From the NCBI GenBank assembly GCA_013306675.1, contig JABLUY010000345.1, forward strand, positions 1 through 29,624: 29,624 nt of DNA, written 5' to 3'. The notes below the pieces were generated by a model. That model was given only the letters and a program-made list of their open reading frames with translations. It was not told where the DNA came from and did not search any database. A program made the position numbers and the translations under genes. Below are positions 2,528-28,979 of this stretch, piece by piece. Origin of the DNA: Thraustochytrium sp. TN22 (lineage: Eukaryota; Sar; Bigyra; Thraustochytrida; Thraustochytriidae). Positions within the stretch are counted from its first letter, which is position 1. Each line of letters opens with the position of its first letter.

Positions 2528-4582
2528 CTAGCCCGTGAAACCACCCCCTGAGGGGACTTGGACGCGCACAAAGACTGGAGGCTGCGACGGTCCGAAGCCA
2601 CGGGCGCTGGCGGTTTGCTGCACAGGCACAAGCATCGGAGGCAACGGGGAACGGATGTCCCAGAAGCTGTCTTCACCGAGTTCCTCCTCGCCGACCTGCA
2701 GCGTCCGGACCCACATCGTCGCTGCGGAGCGACGACGGTTGTTTGCTGCAGATCCTGTTCCACGCGAGGCCGTGAGCATTGCAGTTCGAAGAGCGTCAAT
2801 CGCATTCACTACGTCCTGGGACTCGCTCCGCTCTCTCCAGCCGTTCTCGTCCTCATCGTCGTCCTCATCCCCATGCTGGGACCCGTCGTAATCGTGCTGC
2901 TCCCTCTCAATCTCGCTCATCCTCTCTAAAGCCGCGCTCGCCGCGTCGCGGTCCCCTCCGTGATCCACCACCTTCTGAAGAGCCGCGATCTCACCCTGGA
3001 GGTCGCGATCCGCTCTGTACGTCTCCGCGATTCCAAGCATCGGCTCAGAGGCGTCCTGCCACCCCATTTCCTCGCAGAGACTCACTACTTGCCCGTAGAA
3101 GAATCGCGCGCCATCCTGGTCCATGATCCAGGCACGCATATCACCTGCCCCCATCAGAGCGACGTATTCTCCCTCCGCGTCTTCTGCCTCGTAGAAGAGC
3201 TGCGCGGCCATGGCGAACTGCTGCGATGCATCTGAATACATCTTCTGGCACTCCAAGGCCGATCCAGATCCGAGGCGTGCTCGAGCCAGGAGCACGGTAA
3301 AGTCCCCTGCTTCAAGTTGGCTGCTGTTGACATTCATGATAACTGCCTTCGCCGCGTTGAAAATCCATGCCGATGCCGCGGGATCATGCTCCAGCATCAG
3401 ATCGCCGCAGCCCAGCAAGGCTTCGACGTCATCGCGCGGGTCGTTCCCGCGTGTTCGAGCTCGATGCCTCGCGTTTCTGGCGGTCTTCATTACTCCGGCG
3501 AGCTGCCACTGTAGATGCTTCTTGGAGATCTCCTTGCTGACGTCCTCCATGGTGATGCCTGCCTTCCTTATCGCATCTTTGATCATGTCCTCGTCCCCAG
3601 GCTGCGAGCAGCCCGGATGGCGAAGATCCATCCCGCGGGTCTCCATGTCGACACCCGACGCGCGCCGAAGCCGAATCTGATCGCGGAGCCGGCGCCGGAA
3701 CTCCACGCGCGACGCCGTTGAGTACACGATTTGGAGGTCCCGACCGGTCAAAACAGCCGAGTACATCTCCCACACGCACCACAGCCGCTGCAGCGGCATC
3801 GGGTCCCGCCAGTCGTTGAAGAACACCAGCACGCCCTTGCTGTCACGCACGGCCCTGCGTACACCGTCCTGGAGCACCGATGCCCTTCTTTGCATGGCGT
3901 CCTTGGCCAAGTCTTCCTTGCTCGACAGCCAAGGCTGGTTCGCGCAGAAGACGTCCATCCAGATATAGCGATCTTCCTCGGCGCATTGCTCCATGTGAGG
4001 GCGGAGCGCGTCGACCAGCATTTTGAAAAGAGAGCCCCGCCAGTGGCTCAAAAAGTAGCCCTGCCCTGGCTTCCCCACCTTGGCGTCCATCATCGTTCTG
4101 ACGTAGACCTGCGAGCTCGGCATGCGGCCTGTCCTGGCGATCACCACATGCTGCGCCACATCTTCCGTGGTCCACTCCTCGCGCGTCTTCTCCTTTGCGA
4201 GTGCCGAGGAAAACCTCAGCAACCCCTGATGCTGGGTGGATCCAATCATATCGCCACCCTCCTCCTCGAAGAGCTCCACTGACGTGCCTTTCGGGACAAC
4301 CTGCCCATCATCGGTTTCAACCTCCTGCAGGAGTTCGAAGAGGCGCACGCCAGGCGCGAGCTCGTCACGGAGAACACCACTCAGCACTTGCTCCAAAAAG
4401 TCGAAGCTCACGCACTTGTAGTCGATCAGCTGATCCTCGAGAAGCTGGTACGCGGGGTCCTTCAGCTTCTCGCTGCGCCTGCCCGTGGGCGGGCGTTGTA
4501 CGGATGCACGGTATGGCCCTGCGCCATTTCGTACACCGCCTCCACCTTGGTTATTGCGACGGAACAGAGACGAGCGGAACAT
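2528..4582 (-). CDS. TIR-like protein with C-terminal TPR-like helical region
   Basis: 684 aa from an ATG; no exact family name is assigned. A basic, Gly-rich N-terminus leads into a TIR/heterokaryon-like alpha-beta domain at about residues 175-300. In order it shows YFLSHWRG (176-183), YIWMDVFCANQ (207-217), VLVFFNDW (251-258) and RLWCVWEMYSA (266-276). The last holds W-C-x-x-E (W268, C269, E272), the motif that carries the catalytic glutamate in plant TIR NADases. Residues ~385-560 look like TPR-type helical repeats, followed by an acidic stretch (563-580) and a low-complexity tail. Its third-codon GC looks lower than that of its neighbours, which suggests a younger or faster-evolving gene. 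NAD hydrolysis is only an inference; a scaffold or signalling role without catalysis is equally possible. It is convergent with the cystathionine lyase gene. Confidence 0.75.
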   Translation of the reverse strand: MFRSSLFRRNNQGGGGVRNGAGPYRASVQRPPTGRRSEKLKDPAYQLLEDQLIDYKCVSFDFLEQVLSGVLRDELAPGVRLFELLQEVETDDGQVVPKGTSVELFEEEGGDMIGSTQHQGLLRFSSALAKEKTREEWTTEDVAQHVVIARTGRMPSSQVYVRTMMDAKVGKPGQGYFLSHWRGSLFKMLVDALRPHMEQCAEEDRYIWMDVFCANQPWLSSKEDLAKDAMQRRASVLQDGVRRAVRDSKGVLVFFNDWRDPMPLQRLWCVWEMYSAVLTGRDLQIVYSTASRVEFRRRLRDQIRLRRASGVDMETRGMDLRHPGCSQPGDEDMIKDAIRKAGITMEDVSKEISKKHLQWQLAGVMKTARNARHRARTRGNDPRDDVEALLGCGDLMLEHDPAASAWIFNAAKAVIMNVNSSQLEAGDFTVLLARARLGSGSALECQKMYSDASQQFAMAAQLFYEAEDAEGEYVALMGAGDMRAWIMDQDGARFFYGQVVSLCEEMGWQDASEPMLGIAETYRADRDLQGEIAALQKVVDHGGDRDAASAALERMSEIEREQHDYDGSQHGDEDDDEDENGWRERSESQDVVNAIDALRTAMLTASRGTGSAANNRRRSAATMWVRTLQVGEEELGEDSFWDIRSPLPPMLVPVQQTASARGFGPSQPPVFVRVQVPSGGGFTG

Positions 4583-4718
4583 GGTGCAGTCGCGCGTGCA
4601 GTGCTGTGCAGTCCGTCTTGACGGGCCTTGCGTTCGGGGTTTGCCCGCTCTGCCGTCGCCACGGACGCCTAAGGCGCGGCTTGGAGTTGACTCTGGGGTC
4701 CGACTCTGTCGCCTTCCT

Positions 4719-4731
4719 CCAATCTCACGTG
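4719..4731. promoter_or_regulatory. CCAAT box next to an E-box/G-box (CACGTG)
   Basis: CCAAT at 4719-4723 is followed 2 bp later by CACGTG at 4726-4731, about 140 bp upstream of the TIR-like gene's start. These are recognition sites for NF-Y and for bHLH/bZIP factors in other eukaryotes. Both are short and the call rests on their proximity and position. Confidence 0.3.
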
Positions 4732-4856
4732 ACTGAGCTCAACGCACATGGAACAAAAGGACACGACGTCGCGTCGCAGGCTGCTTTGCCAAGGCTGCAG
4801 CCGGCCGTCTGTCGCTCGCGGCGGACGCCGGTCGGCGCCAGCGGTTGCGTCAGCGG

Positions 4857-4864
4857 TGACGTCA
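4857..4864. promoter_or_regulatory. CRE/bZIP palindrome TGACGTCA
   Basis: A perfect TGACGTCA octamer lies 275 bp upstream of the TIR-like gene's start codon. This is the classical full-site for CREB/ATF-type bZIP factors. Binding is not shown here; an 8-mer can occur by chance in ~30 kb, but its position in the upstream gap supports a regulatory role. Confidence 0.35.
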
Positions 4865-5084
4865 GTGCGTGCCCGCCTAAGCCAGTTTGAAGCCACCGCT
4901 GCAGCCTGAGTGCTGTGCAACCTGCAGTGGGCTTGCGACTTGCAAGATGTAACTGCGTAGGCACGTGCGTCCTGTGCGGCACGCGCGCGACAGGAAGTGG
5001 AAAGTGTGAATGAGTGGTTAGGTTGAACAGCGCCGCCTGCGATCTTCGGATATCATCTTCCCATCCGGCGGCCGTCAGGCCTGA

Positions 5085-6437
5085 TCACGTCTCAGGGTAG
5101 CGAGCGATGCAGGGCACAGACGCGTTGACGACCCCGCTGCCACCTTCGTCATCATCATCCTCGCTTGAGAGTGAAAATTCGCTCGTTGTGGGCCGCCGCT
5201 CGCCCGTGGCGACGACGAAGCGACGCGAACGCGGCGCGAAGCTCGCGCCATTGACACAGAGTCCAAGGTCCTCCGTCGCGAACCTTGGCGCCGGGCCGCG
5301 AGAAGAGGCGCCATCGCCAGGCTCCGCGTCTGCCAGGCGATAGATGAGTGCGCGGCCGCCGCGACCACCCGTAAGGAGGAGCGTGTCGGAGGAGTCAATG
5401 TCGAGGCCGATGCGCTGGTTCGTGTGCGCGTCTCTTGCGAACCAGCCCACGGGCGTGTCCAGGCGCCGCAAGTCCCAGAGCCGCATGCGGCCGTCGCGGC
5501 GGCCGCCAGTGACGAGCTGCGTGCCGGAGCTGGTGAAGCAAACCTGTGAGACGCCGCTCTTGTGTGCTGGCACCATGAAGAGGTTCTCACCGCCCTGGCC
5601 ATTTGCATAAACGGCGATGGTGCCGTCGTAGGAGCCCACCACGAAGCGCGCCTTGTCCGTAGGGTGCATGGCGAAGCATGAGAGGATGCCGCGCTGGCCG
5701 TCGCGCGCGCGACGCGTGGAGGTGGTCGCAAAGAAGTCAATCTGCGCACCGGGCCGCCCGACATCGAAGATGTAGACGCCGCGCTCCACGCCGGCCAAGA
5801 GACGCGCGCCGGAGTGGTCGAAGCTCAGGGAAAGCGCCGATGACAGCTCGTCCAGCTCGTTCACGCACTTGTACGAGGCGCGCAAGTAGCCGCCATAGGC
5901 GTCCCACAGGTGCACGGGTTGGCCGCGGGCCGTGCTGGCAAAGCAGCACGAGGCCGGATCGCTGCTCTGCATGCCCGGAAACCACGCGTAGTCGAAGATG
6001 ACGTCTCCTTCGCGGCATGTCAGGGCCGGTTGCGTGGCCGCCGCCGCTCCGTCCACGCCGGCCCCAGCGAGCGCCACGTCCTCGTACACGTGCAGCACGT
6101 GGTCCTCGCGCGCCGTGAGCACGCAGGACCCGTCCGGCGAGTACCGCACGCCATTCCAGTACGCCTGGCGCGCCGGCGCTGTCGCGCGGCCCACGCTGCG
6201 CAGCTCCAACAGCGCCGGCGCAAGGCCTTTCTGCCGCTGCTCCGGCTGGTGGACGTGCACGTCGTCCTCGAGCGCGGCGGCCGGTCGCGGCCGCCGCCGC
6301 CGCCGCTTCGGTGCGGGGCTTGGGGGGGCGGCAGCGACGACGGGGTCGCGGGGGGTGTCTCTCGCGCGGCCCACGCGCGCCAGCACGGCTGCCACGCCCG
6401 AGAGGCCGCCGACAGCGGCGCCCCGCTCGTCGCCCAT
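5085..6437 (-). CDS. WRAP53: WRAP53/TCAB1-like WD40 protein (telomerase Cajal body protein 1)
   Basis: 450 aa. In animals this family binds the CAB box of scaRNAs and of telomerase RNA and directs the RNP to Cajal bodies. Family-specific motifs are clear: EGDVIFDYAWFPGM (143-156), PVHLWDAYGGYLRASYK (174-190), VNELDELSSALSLSFDHSG (192-210) and a GILSCFAMHP segment in the next blade. The beta-propeller runs from about residue 92 to the C-terminus. An Arg-rich stretch (KRRRRRPRP, 44-52) is a likely nuclear localisation signal. The first ATG in frame is at 6437; the frame stays open upstream to a GTG, which is not used here. The next in-frame Met is inside the propeller, so 6437 is the only good start. 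It is divergent from the nuclease-like gene to the right. Confidence 0.93.
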   Translation of the reverse strand: MGDERGAAVGGLSGVAAVLARVGRARDTPRDPVVAAAPPSPAPKRRRRRPRPAAALEDDVHVHQPEQRQKGLAPALLELRSVGRATAPARQAYWNGVRYSPDGSCVLTAREDHVLHVYEDVALAGAGVDGAAAATQPALTCREGDVIFDYAWFPGMQSSDPASCCFASTARGQPVHLWDAYGGYLRASYKCVNELDELSSALSLSFDHSGARLLAGVERGVYIFDVGRPGAQIDFFATTSTRRARDGQRGILSCFAMHPTDKARFVVGSYDGTIAVYANGQGGENLFMVPAHKSGVSQVCFTSSGTQLVTGGRRDGRMRLWDLRRLDTPVGWFARDAHTNQRIGLDIDSSDTLLLTGGRGGRALIYRLADAEPGDGASSRGPAPRFATEDLGLCVNGASFAPRSRRFVVATGERRPTTSEFSLSSEDDDDEGGSGVVNASVPCIARYPET

Positions 6438-6525
6438 GAAGGCCACCGCTCGTCGCGCAGAACCAGGTCTGCAGGTCTGCAGGGCGGCGGCGCGCGCCTC
6501 GGCCGGCGCGCGCCTACTCGCGGCA
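6438..6525. promoter_or_regulatory. Short putative bidirectional promoter (WRAP53-like / RRG7-like)
   Basis: Only 88 bp separate the two divergent start codons under the preferred models, so one GC-rich segment would have to serve both genes. If the nuclease gene instead starts at 6436, the two ATGs overlap in one CATG and the promoters must lie inside the opposing coding regions. Confidence 0.4.
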
Positions 6526-7209
6526 ATGGCGGCCGCGGTACGTGGCGTGCGCGAGGGCGCGGCCTTCGAGGCCGCCTGCAGGGATGCCCTGCGCCGCTAC
6601 GGCATGCAGCTGCGCGTGCAGGGCGGCGCAGGCGACGGCGGCATCGACCTCATTGGCCGCTGGCGCCTGCCAGCGGCTGCGGCCGCGGCCCGTGGCGCGG
6701 GCGGGGGCGCCGTGGAGGCCCGCGCGTCCGCCGCTGCAGTCCGCGCCGCCTCGCGCGCCTCCGGGCTCGGCCAGGAGGCCACCAGCGACCTAACCACCGA
6801 CGTCAGGACGGCGGCGAACCAGGACGCCACGACCAAGGACATGGTGCGGTCGCCGCTGCTGCGCGTGGGCGTGCAGTGCAAGAGCTACCGTGCCGCCAAG
6901 GTGCCCGTGGCGACAGTGCGCGAGCTCGAGGGCAGCCTGGCGCTGCTGCGCGGCGGTGTGCAGGTGGGCCTCGTCTGCGGCCACTCCGGGTTCACGGCTG
7001 ACGCTGTCAAACTGTGCCGGCGCTCCGGGCTGCCGCTTGCGCTCCTGAGCTTTGACAGCCCGGATTGCACCCACGTTCGCTTCTGCTTCCTCAACGATGC
7101 GCTGCGCCGCCTGCTGCCGCATCTGCAGGTTGCCGAGCAGCGCGCCACGTCAACGCGGCGCTCCGCCGCGATGCTGCTCTACGACGGCGAGCCGCTGCGC
7201 GAGATCTGA
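6526..7209 (+). CDS. Mrr-like / RRG7-like PD-(D/E)XK nuclease-fold protein
   Basis: 227 aa from the ATG at 6526, which has a purine at -3 and G at +4. The pattern is that of the Mrr_cat/DUF2034 (RRG7, required for respiratory growth 7) group of restriction-endonuclease-like folds: an N-terminal helix with E15, GDGGIDLIG (D41), then VGVQCKSY (Q117, K119), followed by VRELEGSL and a GFTADAV segment. The D...QxK residues of the nuclease fold are present, so catalysis is possible. Fungal RRG7 acts in mitochondria. An in-frame upstream ATG at 6436 would add 30 residues (MKATARRAEPGLQ...) rich in Ala and Arg and poor in acid, as in matrix-targeting presequences. Its context (C at -3) is weaker and it interlocks with the WRAP53-like start. 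The stop lies only 33 bp from the stop of the convergent neighbour. Confidence 0.75.
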   Translation: MAAAVRGVREGAAFEAACRDALRRYGMQLRVQGGAGDGGIDLIGRWRLPAAAAAARGAGGGAVEARASAAAVRAASRASGLGQEATSDLTTDVRTAANQDATTKDMVRSPLLRVGVQCKSYRAAKVPVATVRELEGSLALLRGGVQVGLVCGHSGFTADAVKLCRRSGLPLALLSFDSPDCTHVRFCFLNDALRRLLPHLQVAEQRATSTRRSAAMLLYDGEPLREI

Positions 7210-20387: not shown

Positions 20388-23060
20388 ATGCGCATGCACA
20401 TGCCGTGGGCGCTGCTGCGCGGCGGCGTGAGCGTGTCGCGGCGGCAGGTGCTACAGGTGGTCTGGCGCAGCCTGGCGCGGCAGGAGGGGCTCGTGCGCTG
20501 GTACCACGTGGTGGTGGGCGTGTACCTGGCGCTGCTGTGGAGGTCGATGCGCAAGGCGAGGCTGATCAACGGGGACGCGTACTGGCGCGAGCTCATGAAG
20601 CGCGGCAGCGCGTGGCGCACCATCGTGGCTGCGCACGTGTCCATGTGGCGGTACATCCTGACCAAGGCGAGCCTGGGCGCGCTGCTGCTGCAGAATGTCA
20701 CGTCGCGCGCGGTCTTCGTTCCCAAGCTGGCGGCTACTTTCATGGAGAAGCAGTCCGCGGCCATCCAGGAGCGCCTGCAAGTCCGCGTGGAGAACTTCTT
20801 GGACCAGCAGATGGACGTCGTGGGCGAGAAGTTCAAGGATCTTGTCAAGGACCCGTACATGCCGCTGCCCATCCAAAGCACGATCGATGACTTCGTCGAC
20901 GTGCTGCTGCCGGACATCAAATTGGCGCTTTTTACCAAGACCAACGAGTACATCCGCGCGTACGGCGCCAGGCCCAAGCTCACGCGCCACCAGCACACCT
21001 TGCGTCGCCGGCGCACGCAGTCCGAGGCGGCGCACCGCCGACGGCGCGAGTCCAAGGACGGGTCCAAGGACGGCGCCGGGGCCAATCCCGTCGATCCGGC
21101 CGAGGAGGAAATTGATCGCGTGCTGGACTCGCTCATGGAAGACATCGACGAGGACGAGGCAGTTGAGACGTCCTCGATGGCGCTGGACGACCTGCTGTCC
21201 TCGGACGACGAGGACGCAGATTCAGAATCCGCCAGCGCCGCAGGTGGGAACTCTGACGCCTCCGACTCAGAGAACGATTCCGACGAGGAGGACGAGGACG
21301 AGGACGAGGAGGCCGAGGCGGGCGCCGACGCAGCCAGCTCGTTCCGCGGCTTGTCGCTGCGCAGACGCGCTGGCCAAGCGCGCCGGCTGTGCTGGCGCTG
21401 GCGACGCCGCTGGATGCGGCGCAGCAAGCGTCGCCAGCGCAACAGCTGCTGCTCCACCGGCATGGCCGCCTCGGCGCGCCGCTCAGCTCGCGGCGTGCGC
21501 GCCTGGGTCTTGTACACCCTGGTGCCTTACGACCGCAGCTTCTGGCGCTCCGTGCGCAACCCATGGTACCTGGCCCTCCAGGTCATCGGACTCATCCCCG
21601 GGCTCGGCATGCTCTGGTGGCTCTTTGTATTTATGCTCCACGACAAACGCGACGAGTTCCAGCTCTCGCAGTTCATCGTCGGCTTCCAGACAGCCAAGTT
21701 CTTCTCGCAAGGCTGCTTCAACCTCTCGCGCGGCGCGCTCGCCTACTTTTGGTGCGCCAATCGCGAGGTGCCCATTTGCGACACGCACGGGCCCATGTTC
21801 CAAGAGTACACGGACGCGCTCTTTTTCGCAGTGCAGATCGTCATCGTCTGGCTCACCTTCTTCATCCTCCCCTCCTCGGAGCCCTGCCGCGCCGTCAACG
21901 ACCCGCGCGACGCCCACCTGCTGGACGAGGAGCGAACCGACCGCAACCAGGCCGCGCTGCGCGCCAAGGTGCGCCTCGGACGTGGCGGACGTCTGCGCCA
22001 CCTCTTTTGGTGGGACACCATCGCCGTCTGCGCCGTCCTGCTCCTCGGCGCGCTCGCCTACTTTGTCGCGGACCTGCGCGGCTGGCAGCTACGCGCCACG
22101 CTCTACTGGCTCAGCACCATCTACGGGCTCACCGCGCTGCCCTTTGTGCCCTTCAAACTCCCCGTCATGGGCGCCCTGCTCACGCCCACCAAGGCCACTG
22201 GCTACACGCGCCGAGGCTACACCGTGCTGCGCGTCATCCCGCCGCCGCCGCAGCCGCTCCTCGACTACAACGAGCACGAGAAGTCGCACCAGGGCGACTC
22301 GCCTTCGCTGGCGGCGCTTCTCCCGCTCTCCACCTCCATGGACTCCGAGGACGGCTCCCCAGAACCCGCGCAGCCCCCGGGGGCCCTTCGCACCGCCGCC
22401 GCCGCCGCCGCCGCCTCCAGCAGCACCAGCAGCGCGGCCAGCGCGCACGGCAAGGAGCTCCGCACGCGGCCCTCGCCCTCAGGCGAGCCGACTGGCGGCG
22501 GCGGCGGCGGTAGCGGCGTCAGGAGAACGCCCAGCACAGGCAGCAGCCTCAGTATAGAGAGCGGCAGCAGCCGCCGCCTCGCAGCCGCCGCGCCCTCCCC
22601 GCTCGAGGAAACCGCGCGCTTCTTGCGCTTCGGCAAGTCTGCCACGCCCACCTCCACCGCCAGCATCAGCACGCTGCTCAGCCGCTCCGCTCCGTCCTCG
22701 GCGCGCACCAGCGACGCGGACGAGGATGAGGACGAGATGGAATTTGATGAGTCCGGACTCGCCTTCCGCCGCGCGTTCCGCCGCCCCAATCGCCTCGAGC
22801 GCGAGCGCCGCAGGCACGGTCGCTTCTTCTTGCCCGACAAATACGAGCGCAAATACGGCGACTACGCGCCCGAAGGCGACGAGGTCGCGCAGACCCCCGC
22901 CACGCCTGGCGACTTCGCCTCCACCGGCATCCACGACGTCACCGCAGAGGTCGCCGCGCGAACCACGCTCACCCACTCCAACGCCCAGCTCCTCTACAAC
23001 CTGCGCCGCCTACGCAGCTCCTCCTCGCTCTTCGACGATGGCACACCACGAGGCAAGTGA
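20388..23060 (+). CDS. Large multi-TM membrane protein of unknown function
   Basis: 890 aa; no named family recognised. Residues 1-190 look globular or membrane-associated, with a possible hydrophobic helix at about 38-52 and an amphipathic part (MEKQSAAIQERLQVRVENF). An acidic/Ser stretch (about 245-315) and an Arg/Trp-rich stretch (about 325-365) follow. Then comes a core of about five hydrophobic helices (about 391-415, 428-455, 474-496, 540-563, 573-595) that begins VLYTLVPYDRSFWRSVRNPWY and includes DKRDEFQLSQFIVGFQTAKFF and GYTRRGYTVLRVIPPPPQP. This core resembles uncharacterised membrane proteins of protists and plants in my memory, which is not proof. The last ~230 residues are Ser/Ala/Gly low complexity with a basic patch (RRPNRLERERRRHGRFF). 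Start: ATG at 20388 with G at -3; the frame reaches a GTG 12 nt upstream, which is not used. Confidence 0.75.
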   Translation: MRMHMPWALLRGGVSVSRRQVLQVVWRSLARQEGLVRWYHVVVGVYLALLWRSMRKARLINGDAYWRELMKRGSAWRTIVAAHVSMWRYILTKASLGALLLQNVTSRAVFVPKLAATFMEKQSAAIQERLQVRVENFLDQQMDVVGEKFKDLVKDPYMPLPIQSTIDDFVDVLLPDIKLALFTKTNEYIRAYGARPKLTRHQHTLRRRRTQSEAAHRRRRESKDGSKDGAGANPVDPAEEEIDRVLDSLMEDIDEDEAVETSSMALDDLLSSDDEDADSESASAAGGNSDASDSENDSDEEDEDEDEEAEAGADAASSFRGLSLRRRAGQARRLCWRWRRRWMRRSKRRQRNSCCSTGMAASARRSARGVRAWVLYTLVPYDRSFWRSVRNPWYLALQVIGLIPGLGMLWWLFVFMLHDKRDEFQLSQFIVGFQTAKFFSQGCFNLSRGALAYFWCANREVPICDTHGPMFQEYTDALFFAVQIVIVWLTFFILPSSEPCRAVNDPRDAHLLDEERTDRNQAALRAKVRLGRGGRLRHLFWWDTIAVCAVLLLGALAYFVADLRGWQLRATLYWLSTIYGLTALPFVPFKLPVMGALLTPTKATGYTRRGYTVLRVIPPPPQPLLDYNEHEKSHQGDSPSLAALLPLSTSMDSEDGSPEPAQPPGALRTAAAAAAASSSTSSAASAHGKELRTRPSPSGEPTGGGGGGSGVRRTPSTGSSLSIESGSSRRLAAAAPSPLEETARFLRFGKSATPTSTASISTLLSRSAPSSARTSDADEDEDEMEFDESGLAFRRAFRRPNRLERERRRHGRFFLPDKYERKYGDYAPEGDEVAQTPATPGDFASTGIHDVTAEVAARTTLTHSNAQLLYNLRRLRSSSSLFDDGTPRGK

Positions 23061-25700: not shown

Positions 25701-28700
25701 TCAGGCAGTGCCTACAGGGGCATCAGTCGGTCCCGGCCTCGGACGCGGTGGCAGGGGCGGGAAGGACAGGTCAAGGCGGACGCATACGACAGAGATGTTG
25801 TCGCGGGACAACTTGTTGAAGGCGAGGGTGCGCACCAAAAGGGCTGCGAGCGCCGGATCAAAGACGTGCTTGAGCTTGGCGGCGACGTCTTCGGGCTCAA
25901 GCACGTCCCAAACGCCGTCGCAACCGAGCACAAGCCAGGTGTACGTGGGCTGGCGTCGCGGCTGGGTCGGCTCGAGGCGGTGGACGGCGATGGTGGGCTC
26001 GGCGGAGACGTACGGCGCGAATTCGATGTCACCGAGAGCGCGCGAGACGGCGAGCTGGCCGACGACGCGGCCGTTAGGCGCGACGAAGCCGCCATTCTCC
26101 TCGATGCGTCGGCGCTCGTCATCGTCGGTGGGTTTCACGATCTTGGCGAGCCACTTGGTCTTGCCGCTGGGGCTGACGAGCAGCGCGCGCGAGTCGCCAG
26201 CGCAGGCCACAAAGAGTCGGCTCCCGACCAGATACGTGATGAGGGCGCAGCTGCCGTTGCAGATCCTGAGGTGCCGGCAGCGCGCCTGCACGGCGCGAAA
26301 GGCACGCGAGAGGCACATGGACACAGCGTGCTCAAGGTTCGACGAGGCGGCGGTGCTCAAGGGCTCGGAGCCCGCGGCGGCCGGGGCTGCGGCGTGCGTG
26401 TGCGGGAGAGCGTCGAGCTCAGCGAGCTCGGTGAGGAGCGCTTCGGGGAGCCACGTGCAGGCAAACTTGGCGCACTGCACGCCGCCGTGGCCGTCAAAGA
26501 TGCCAAAGAGGGCGCCCTTGATGGCGGCGGTGTGCGGGCCAAAGGCTGGGCGCAAGAGCACCAAGTCCTCCATGGACGAGCGGCGGCCGCGTGTCTCGGC
26601 AAATCCAAAGGCGACTTGCGCCGGCCCGGTAAAGCTGGGGTGCGGCGGCGGGCCGGACGGCGCTTGAGGGGCCGAGAAGCCGACAGAGACCGCGGGCTGC
26701 ATATAGTGCTTGTCGGACTTGAGCGCATCCGAGGAGTTGCGTCGGCCTGTGGTGCCGCGGCGCGTGCGGCCCGGGGCGGCATCCTGCATGGCGCGCACCT
26801 CGGATGTGGCTGACATGTCGCTAAAGCGATCAAAGGTCGTTGGCGATGACCCGTTCGAGCCGGGGCTGTCCTCGCTATCGTCAACGTAGGGCTCGCGAGC
26901 GGGCTGCGAGACCGGGCTCGCGCCACCGTGCAGGTTCGGTGATGACCCAGTGGTTCGCAGCGGCCCGCGAAACGGGTTCGCTGGCCACCCAAGGCGCCAG
27001 CTTGAGCGCCGTCCGCCAATGCCACCGTTGCGATGGCCGACTGCGTCCTCCGCGCCCCCGGTGCTGCTCCTCTCGGCGCCCGAGGCGCCCTTGGCGGCGT
27101 CCGGGACCGGGAGCGAGGCAATGATGTCCTGCAAAATCTCGGCCACGTCGTTGTTGCGCTTCAGGTAAGCCTCGATGCGCGACTCGCTCTCGGCCGTGGC
27201 CCAGAACCGGGGCGCCATCTCGCCGTTGTCGGCACCCGCAGCGGCCGCCGCGGTCGCGGGCGTGGGTGTTGAGGGAATCTGGTTCACCGCCAGGGCGAGC
27301 GCACCGGGGCCGCCGTTCGCGCCGCGGCTGGAGCCCTGGCTGGCGGCAGCGGCCGCGGCCCCGGCGGCGGCGGCGCCTGGAACGCTGACCGGCGTGAGCG
27401 AGGTGCTGCCGGAACTGTTGGCGCTGCTGTCGCTGAGCCGGCGCTGCAGGCGCAGCGCGGTCGGAACGCCACCGTTGCCGGCGATATTGAGTTTGCGCAG
27501 ACGGTGATTGCAGGCGACCGCGCGCGCGATGCCCTCAAGCGCGCGATCGTTGAGGCGGTTCCTGGAGACGTCGAGCACCTCGATGGCGGTGTTGGAGAGA
27601 ATGAGGCCATTGTAAATGGCATTGGCGCATTCCTCGTCCATGCTGGTGTTGGCGAGGCGCAGCTCCTTGAGCGTCTGGTTCCCGGCCAGGTAGCGTAGGA
27701 GGCCGCGCACGCCGCCGATGCCCAGACAGTTGTCGGACAGGTCGATCGACTCGAGCGAGTTGTTGTTGCGCAGGCCGTCGCCGAGCGCGGCAACGCCCGT
27801 GCGCCCCAGCGAACAGCTTTCGAGCGCAAGGCTACGCACGCTGCCGACCGTGAGAAAGTGCGCGAGGACCTCGGCGCCGAAGTCGCCCACAGCGGCGCCA
27901 CGCTTGCTAAAGTCGAGCTGTAGCGCGGACGTGGAGGTGGACGACTTAGCTTGCCGCATCGCTTGCTCAATGGTGGTGCGCGCTAGGTCTTCAAAGCCTT
28001 CGGGGCAGCCCTTGCCCGCGCTCCGTCCCATGGCGTGCCGCATAGCGTGCTGCAAGGTCTGCATGACGTCGGACTCGTCCGCGCCAGCGTCCTCGGACCC
28101 AGAGGAGAAATTCCGCAGGTCTGGCCGTGTGCTGCAGGTACCCATGGCCTCCAGGTTGATTGCCTCGACCTCCTCCTCGGTCACGGTGCGCAGGGAGATA
28201 CGCGCCTGCTGGTATGGCCCGCCACGCGGCGACGCGAGGGCCAGCGGCTCGAGCGACGGTGGCACCTGCAAGGGAGAGCCCACTTCGAGTGAGAGCTCGC
28301 CGTTAAGGCCGGGTGGGTCCAGCAGGTCCTCGTCGCTCACGAGAGCGTCCTCTTCCTCCAGCTGCTGCTGCAGCAGCTGGCGCCGCCCCTCCCTGCTTGT
28401 CGTGCGGTTCGCCTCCTGCTCGCGAACCGGCGCCGACTGCGCGCGGGGCGGGAACCGTACCCAGTTCGCCGGGTTGCGCCAGCCGCCGCCCTGCGCGGCG
28501 ATAGGACCCGGGTCACTCGCACCGCCGTTGCTCGCGTGCGAGCTGCCGTTGAAGGTGCCGTTCGTGTGGCCGCTCCCGCCACTCGTCACAGAGTCGCTGG
28601 ACGCGTCCCCGTCAGCCTGGGGCGCCGTCCGCAGCCGGCCGGGCCTCTTGACAGCAGCAGCTTCCTGCGATGACACCACGTCGTGGTCCTCCACGCGCTG

Positions 28701-28979
28701 CTGCTCTTGTTGGCGCTCCTGGTCCTGTTGTTGATGTTGATGTTGTTGCTGCTGCTCGTGCCGATAGGGTTGTGGTCTCTGTGCATGTGCAGGAGCACGG
28801 TTCTTGGCGGTGCCCGCGTTACCGTCGCTGTTGCGTGAGCCCGTGTGGTACCGCTCCCCCACCGCGTCGTCGGCGTTGTCGCCCGCCTTGTCGTCTTCCG
28901 ACCGCGGCGGGGGGCGCAGGCAGCACAGGTACCAGGAAATCGTGCCGGCCTTGTGTACTCCACTTCTTTTTGATTCCAA
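25701..28979 (-). CDS. LRR-PP2C fusion protein phosphatase (5' end unresolved)
   Basis: Open frame of 1092 codons. The N-terminal ~340 residues are low complexity with Gln/His runs. Residues about 350-500 are ribonuclease-inhibitor-type leucine-rich repeats (SLESIDLSDNCLGIGGVRGL, then LKELRLANTSMDE and IEVLDVSRNRLND). A Ser/Ala/Gly linker follows. The PP2C (PPM) domain spans about 785-1075 with the metal ligands in place: RRSSMED (E804, D805), FDGHGG (D829, G830), SRALGD, GCDGVWD (D1021) and RDNISVV (D1060). It should be an Mg/Mn-dependent Ser/Thr phosphatase; the LRRs probably choose the substrate, as in PHLPP and fungal LRR-PP2C cyclases. There is no in-frame ATG before 28145 (MGTCSTRP, residue 279); the frame begins after a stop at 29013-29015 and the coordinate given is a TTG. 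An upstream exon is the most likely source of the start codon; a start at 28145 is the alternative. Confidence 0.85.
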   Translation of the reverse strand: MESKRSGVHKAGTISWYLCCLRPPPRSEDDKAGDNADDAVGERYHTGSRNSDGNAGTAKNRAPAHAQRPQPYRHEQQQQHQHQQQDQERQQEQQRVEDHDVVSSQEAAAVKRPGRLRTAPQADGDASSDSVTSGGSGHTNGTFNGSSHASNGGASDPGPIAAQGGGWRNPANWVRFPPRAQSAPVREQEANRTTSREGRRQLLQQQLEEEDALVSDEDLLDPPGLNGELSLEVGSPLQVPPSLEPLALASPRGGPYQQARISLRTVTEEEVEAINLEAMGTCSTRPDLRNFSSGSEDAGADESDVMQTLQHAMRHAMGRSAGKGCPEGFEDLARTTIEQAMRQAKSSTSTSALQLDFSKRGAAVGDFGAEVLAHFLTVGSVRSLALESCSLGRTGVAALGDGLRNNNSLESIDLSDNCLGIGGVRGLLRYLAGNQTLKELRLANTSMDEECANAIYNGLILSNTAIEVLDVSRNRLNDRALEGIARAVACNHRLRKLNIAGNGGVPTALRLQRRLSDSSANSSGSTSLTPVSVPGAAAAGAAAAAASQGSSRGANGGPGALALAVNQIPSTPTPATAAAAAGADNGEMAPRFWATAESESRIEAYLKRNNDVAEILQDIIASLPVPDAAKGASGAERSSTGGAEDAVGHRNGGIGGRRSSWRLGWPANPFRGPLRTTGSSPNLHGGASPVSQPAREPYVDDSEDSPGSNGSSPTTFDRFSDMSATSEVRAMQDAAPGRTRRGTTGRRNSSDALKSDKHYMQPAVSVGFSAPQAPSGPPPHPSFTGPAQVAFGFAETRGRRSSMEDLVLLRPAFGPHTAAIKGALFGIFDGHGGVQCAKFACTWLPEALLTELAELDALPHTHAAAPAAAGSEPLSTAASSNLEHAVSMCLSRAFRAVQARCRHLRICNGSCALITYLVGSRLFVACAGDSRALLVSPSGKTKWLAKIVKPTDDDERRRIEENGGFVAPNGRVVGQLAVSRALGDIEFAPYVSAEPTIAVHRLEPTQPRRQPTYTWLVLGCDGVWDVLEPEDVAAKLKHVFDPALAALLVRTLAFNKLSRDNISVVCVRLDLSFPPLPPRPRPGPTDAPVGTA

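Follow-up and report, generated by a model that had tools for sequence, protein, structure and literature searches.

Does the open reading frame (ORF) at positions 2,528 to 4,582 of contig JABLUY010000345.1 of Thraustochytrium sp. TN22 encode a sensor in which a TIR-like domain is followed by helical repeats, as was predicted from the letters of the whole contig (29,624 nucleotides, here called the window), and does such a gene stand alone in its genome? Recognition of viruses, bacteria or kin by single-celled eukaryotes is largely unexplained, and we found that the gene belongs to a large family joining a predicted TIR-like domain to tetratricopeptide repeats (TPRs), diversified in a part of its members, which makes the family a concrete, testable candidate for such recognition.

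A large gene family in the genome

When the window protein was searched in six frames over its own genome (37.9 Mb, 453 contigs), at least 65 places matched at E ≤ 1, the window included; the figure is a lower bound because 65 of the 126 candidates were scored. This count of paralogues, which had been called for as a check, contradicted the uniqueness implied by the original prediction, since the gene belongs to a large family. The 64 other places matched within residues 3-476 of the window protein, and no stop was found inside the match in 63 of the 65, so over the matched stretch the family genes appear to lack introns. DNA was taken for 44 of the 64 other places (43 stretches, with a GC content of 65% in the fetched loci) and gave 44 family ORFs, of which 4 short or broken ones were excluded and 40 were aligned with the window protein (alignments A1, A2 and A3, 41 members). 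Two family members were adjacent on the same strand of contig C16 (L043:2038-4185 and L043:4886-6910).

The window protein shared 22-39% identity with the other members in A2 and A3, its terminal branch was 1.49 against a median of 0.38, and it deviated at 21 of the 67 columns common to at least 36 of the other 40 members (the two most divergent others at 21 of 66 each; median 1.6%). Units of the TPR_12, TPR_10 and TPR_NPHP3 type were present in 40 of the 41 members; TPR_12 occurred in all but the window protein, which had no match to Pfam TPR families at E ≤ 0.1. The window gene is a divergent, non-variable member of the family. The ratio of non-synonymous to synonymous differences (pN/pS) of the N-terminal plus TIR-like region was 0.18-0.41 in the 10 pairs of groups g2-g4. 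Among the titles and abstract openings listed for TIR/TPR families of protists there was no report of such a family.

Predicted domains and fold

Two models and the structure comparison supported the proposed arrangement, in which TPRs come after a TIR-like fold, but the TIR-like part scored weakly (Table 1). The 10 best PDB rows returned by Foldseek for the TIR-like domain model were all plant TIRs or SARM1, and the 50 VIA structural rows comprised 37 TIRs, 12 nucleoside deoxyribosyltransferases (NDTs) and one unnamed protein, the NDTs tying with the TIRs in Z. The best viral row was a 'TIR/WD40' protein of Tetraselmis virus 1 (E 2.5e-3, prob 0.99), and several NDTs were among the viral rows. 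The full-length fold search was dominated by TPRs and hardly probed the TIR-like or N-terminal part; the full-length model matched solved TPR domains, as expected from the helical repeats noticed earlier, and the window protein has a TPR superhelix in its predicted structure. In the N-terminal domain, which is conserved in A2 and had no credible Pfam or PDB sequence match, block means of the predicted local distance difference test (pLDDT) were 83-98 over residues 41-160 of the model.

Sequence profiles did not place the domain in TIR (PF01582, PF13676) or HET (PF06985), and gave weak ThsB TIR-like matches. Two ThsB TIR-like models were the only ones of PADLOC matched at E ≤ 0.1 (6 of 41 and 1 of 41 members, best E 0.0059), and the Pfam ThsB family matched 2 of 41 members (best E 0.098). 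Neither TIR nor TIR_2 appeared among the 12 families listed for the 41 members at E ≤ 10, with none for the window protein, and HET gave a sub-cut-off match in a single member other than the window protein (E 0.39). The comparison of A3 with a profile of seven TIR_2 domains, out of 123 matches in the same genome, put FLSH, W-x-D and WC-x-x-E in register (E 0.066); because 11 of 200 column-shuffled controls scored as high, no homology to TIR at the sequence level is claimed from it. The window protein alone had no Pfam family above the cut-off and no phmmer match in the PDB at E ≤ 10, the A2 and A3 profiles gave weak PDB rows only (protein A leading), and the NCBIfam scan of A2 returned four weak families, all unrelated. 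Relatives of A3 were sought in viral and prokaryote contig collections, where none of the 50 and 36 pattern matches, respectively, was confirmed.

The structural rows leave room for a fold nearer to NDTs or another nucleotide hydrolase, acting in nucleotide metabolism or modification and not in immunity, a reading favoured by the tied NDT rows and by the NDTs among the viral ones. We regard it as very unlikely: a family that counts at least 65 places and whose 12 testable members have a diversified TPR groove would be unexpected for a metabolic enzyme, and ThsB TIR-like models were the sole PADLOC families matched at E ≤ 0.1.

Table 1. Features of the window gene and its upstream region
Coordinates	Strand	Feature	Remarks
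2528..4582	-	ORF, 684 residues, single frame: N-terminal domain, TIR-like domain, TPR region and low-confidence tail	
4109..4471	-	N-terminal family-specific domain, residues 38-158: helices, then small beta-rich fold; no Pfam family above cut-off	model pLDDT; conservation in A2
3527..4105	-	TIR-like alpha/beta domain, residues 160-352	
3953..3961	-	W208-M-D210, second strand of TIR-like domain	W and D invariant 41/41
3767..3781	-	WCVWE motif, putative catalytic Glu272	W268, C269, W271, E272 invariant 41/41
2891..3550	-	Degenerate TPR superhelix, residues 345-564	
2531..2890	-	C-terminal tail, residues 565-684, low confidence	pLDDT block means <60
4583..5084	.	Upstream intergenic region; matches: 1 CRE, 2 E-box, 1 CCAAT	not evidence of function

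Invariant core and the putative active site

The motifs SHWRG, IWMDVFCANQ and RLWCVWEMYSA follow each other in the ORF in the order described, and residue 272 is indeed the glutamate of WCVWE. Besides the residues of Table 1, W258, R266 and D330 were invariant in the 41 aligned members. E272 is residue 113 of the domain model and lies in helix 108-120, after the third strand (91-96). In TIR NADases the catalytic glutamate sits in the helix that follows the third strand (W-C/V-x-x-E), which we take to be the position occupied by E272; the match of WCxxE to the motif around the catalytic glutamate of plant TIR NADases, as given in the original prediction, agrees both with the predicted helix and with the invariance of the residue.

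The same residues could belong to a non-enzymatic scaffold, in which the domain would only self-associate as the TIRs of TLR and MyD88 do, the TPRs would recruit partners and E272 would be structural. The W, C and W around E272 are as invariant as E272 itself, as a structural core would be, and sequence similarity to catalytic TIRs is weak; however, the glutamate is kept even in long-branch members, and most of the listed structural neighbours are NADase TIRs or NDTs, both of them enzyme groups that employ a glutamate. We consider a scaffold unlikely.

Diversification of the TPR groove in paralogues

Repeat units were located by the motif LG[..]H, which misses degenerate repeats, and 148 whole units were obtained in 36 of the 40 paralogues. 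In the part of the work of Magliery & Regan (PMC1261162) available to us, positions 2, 5, 9, 12 and 13, plus 33 and 34, make up a seven-position list of the groove, position 6 is named as a contact, and groove variation is described as a feature shared generally by the TPRs of different proteins. The five helix A positions of this list, chosen after the per-position table had been viewed, had a mean entropy of 3.14 against 1.71 and ranked first of 2002 five-position helix A sets. With all seven listed positions the entropy was 2.76 against 1.70 (permutation p 0.00125), so that the signal was weaker and still stood after positions 33 and 34, and contact 6, were added (p 0.00125 and 0.00095); positions 31 and 41, which are off the list, were equally variable.

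Qualifying repeat pairs, picked at a framework identity of ≥0.85, were found in only 12 of the 40 paralogues (141 pairs, not independent of each other). Within these arrays groove pN was 0.388, framework pS was 0.090 and framework pN, lowered by construction because of the way in which the pairs were picked, was 0.049; groove pN exceeded framework pS in 12 of the 12 proteins. High-identity internal repeats with a diversifying groove are absent from the window protein and occur in these 12 paralogues, the only ones with qualifying pairs. Targeted hypermutation of groove codons was not supported: at a threshold of 0.85, fourfold sites encoding the same amino acid differed in 12 of 114 cases for the groove and in 232 of 3160 for the framework, and at 0.9 in 4 of 84 and 159 of 2506, respectively; the raised groove pS is probably an artefact of counting codons with multiple changes.

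On this sequence evidence, the groove of the 12 better-preserved paralogues looks rapidly diversified, as in genes for self/non-self recognition. Such variation among near-identical repeats within a single array is indicative of recent diversifying selection and not of old functional divergence alone. It also bears on whether the family consists of cargo adaptors resembling kinesin light chain (KLC), whose TPR variation would reflect many intracellular partners in trafficking or the cytoskeleton with no role in recognition. The TPR units of 40 of the 41 members are of the KLC/NPHP3 type, and the general variability of TPR grooves (in the part of PMC1261162 cited above) would fit such adaptors, but here the amino acid differences amount to 36-79% by groove position between repeats whose frameworks differ silently by about 9%, and we judge this alternative quite unlikely. 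The term 'sensor' in the original prediction fits the TPR arrays of the paralogues better than the degenerate TPRs of the window protein.

Proposed mechanism

We give about an even chance to the proposal that the window gene encodes a TPR sensor joined directly to a TIR-like effector, activated by ligand clustering and with E272 as its catalytic residue. The protein would be a receptor-like effector located in the cytosol and belonging to a protist-expanded family; its two parts would be a TIR-like (TIR/HET/deoxyribosyltransferase-fold) domain and a C-terminal TPR superhelix, without an intervening NB-ARC or NACHT switch. The TPR groove of the family may bind a peptide or protein ligand and so cluster the proteins, whose TIR-like domains would assemble and, by means of the invariant glutamate, break the N-glycosidic bond in NAD+ or in a related nucleotide, leading to cell death or to a second messenger; in immune cell death the TIR-like fold often serves to destroy NAD. 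Different paralogues might read different ligands because their groove positions have diversified. The putative active site is retained in the window member, and since the TPRs of this protein are degenerate and non-repetitive, one fixed partner, as for a helper or regulator, is more likely than a place in the variable repertoire.

For the family of at least 65 places, a tentative reading, somewhat less probable than the previous one, is that of a rapidly diversifying recognition repertoire, encoded in the genome of a protist, in which a TIR-like NADase is coupled straight to a variable TPR sensor without a nucleotide-binding switch. It would correspond to the HET-NLR allorecognition of fungi but work without NLRs, and would exist alongside conventional TIR_2 domains that number more than 100, with the window gene as an old, non-variable member. 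If true, TIR-based recognition can diversify without the NLR switch.

Comparison with known systems

A TIR/HET effector with superstructure-forming repeats is a known kind of protein; what is new here is the absence of the nucleotide-binding switch. The expected lack of a nucleotide-binding domain held, as Pfam at E ≤ 1 gave only a sub-cut-off RRM match for the window protein; no central STAND NTPase was found in it, and the 2 NB-ARC and 8 NACHT places of the genome overlapped no family place.

Passages of Dyrka et al. 2014 (PMC4986451) describe NLRs of fungi that combine a HET domain with TPR or WD40 repeats (Podospora HET-E/D/R, nwd family) and that are alike in their TIR-related N-terminal domain, their large families and their C-terminal superstructure-forming repeats of high internal identity with a diversifying groove, the latter found here in the 12 paralogues and not in the window protein; they also mention HET relatives in stramenopiles, haptophytes, choanoflagellates and green algae. 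Unlike these proteins, the window protein has neither NACHT nor NB-ARC, and the family has no HET profile match beyond the single one given above. Plant TNP (TIR-NBARC-TPR) shares the N-terminal TIR and C-terminal TPRs and, in the portions of PMC9806590 that deal with it, a maize TNP causes cell death by way of its P-loop and the NADase site of its TIR, and copies are few (Marchantia 1, N. benthamiana 4). In contrast, no NBARC is present here, and near-identical diversified repeats occur in 12 protist paralogues.

SARM1 and the plant TIR NADases (RPP1, RUN1, ROQ1) are alike in predicted fold and glutamate position, but similarity to them is weak, their regulatory domains are other ones and no profile matched. 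Thoeris ThsB, from a prokaryotic defence that is not known to include a TPR array, resembles the family in the weak PADLOC and Pfam matches and in ThsB rows in VIA; however, PF08937 (ThsB_TIR) had no match in the genome at E ≤ 0.001, and the family has a TPR array.

Other TIR, HET and NLR-type domains in the genome

The 123 matches to TIR_2 (PF13676) were found at E ≤ 0.001, 114 of them over the cut-off and some in one frame; the genome also gave 3 matches to PF01582, 1 to HET (PF06985) at E ≤ 0.001, 2 to NB-ARC and 8 to NACHT (7 over the cut-off). Clustering of the family with TIR_2 genes was rejected, with 4 of 65 places within 10 kb and 4.1 expected. Three TIR_2 proteins had three architectures, namely COR-A (Roco) plus TIR (L053), ZZ plus TIR together with a sub-cut-off match to Mind-bomb SH3 (L054), and TIR preceded by an N-terminus that matches no Pfam family and looks helical by eye (L052). 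The sole HET match (L059:1273-2724) lies in a protein with MORN repeats that is not a family gene. Six TIR_2 matches occurred in a run at C160:192-5666, spaced by about 1,043 bases, four with an internal stop.

Composition and neighbourhood of the gene

GC at third codon positions (GC3) was 0.73 in the window gene and 0.80-0.90 in eight other window ORFs, as claimed, with a mean of 0.88 in the 40 aligned paralogues; ORF 20695-22557, however, was lower still (0.65, the lowest of ten measured; 620 residues, no Pfam match). The promoter sites predicted upstream were present, and the CRE match was the only one in the window, but a 'dedicated' promoter is unsupported because such matches are so short. 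The Rfam scan of the window gave nothing at the gathering threshold. The 12 other window ORFs scanned comprised 4 without any Pfam match and 8 with ordinary ones: a Cys/Met metabolism enzyme, WD40, RRG7/Mrr (ORF 5998-7209, RRG7 and Mrr_cat), TMEM145, a choline transporter, PEP mutase/ICL, a metallophosphatase and PP2C (ORF 25701-28979, with a weak LRR match). Finally, three near-copies of a stretch of about 60-70 bases were seen by eye at approximately 2200-2360, in the intergenic region after the Cys/Met enzyme.
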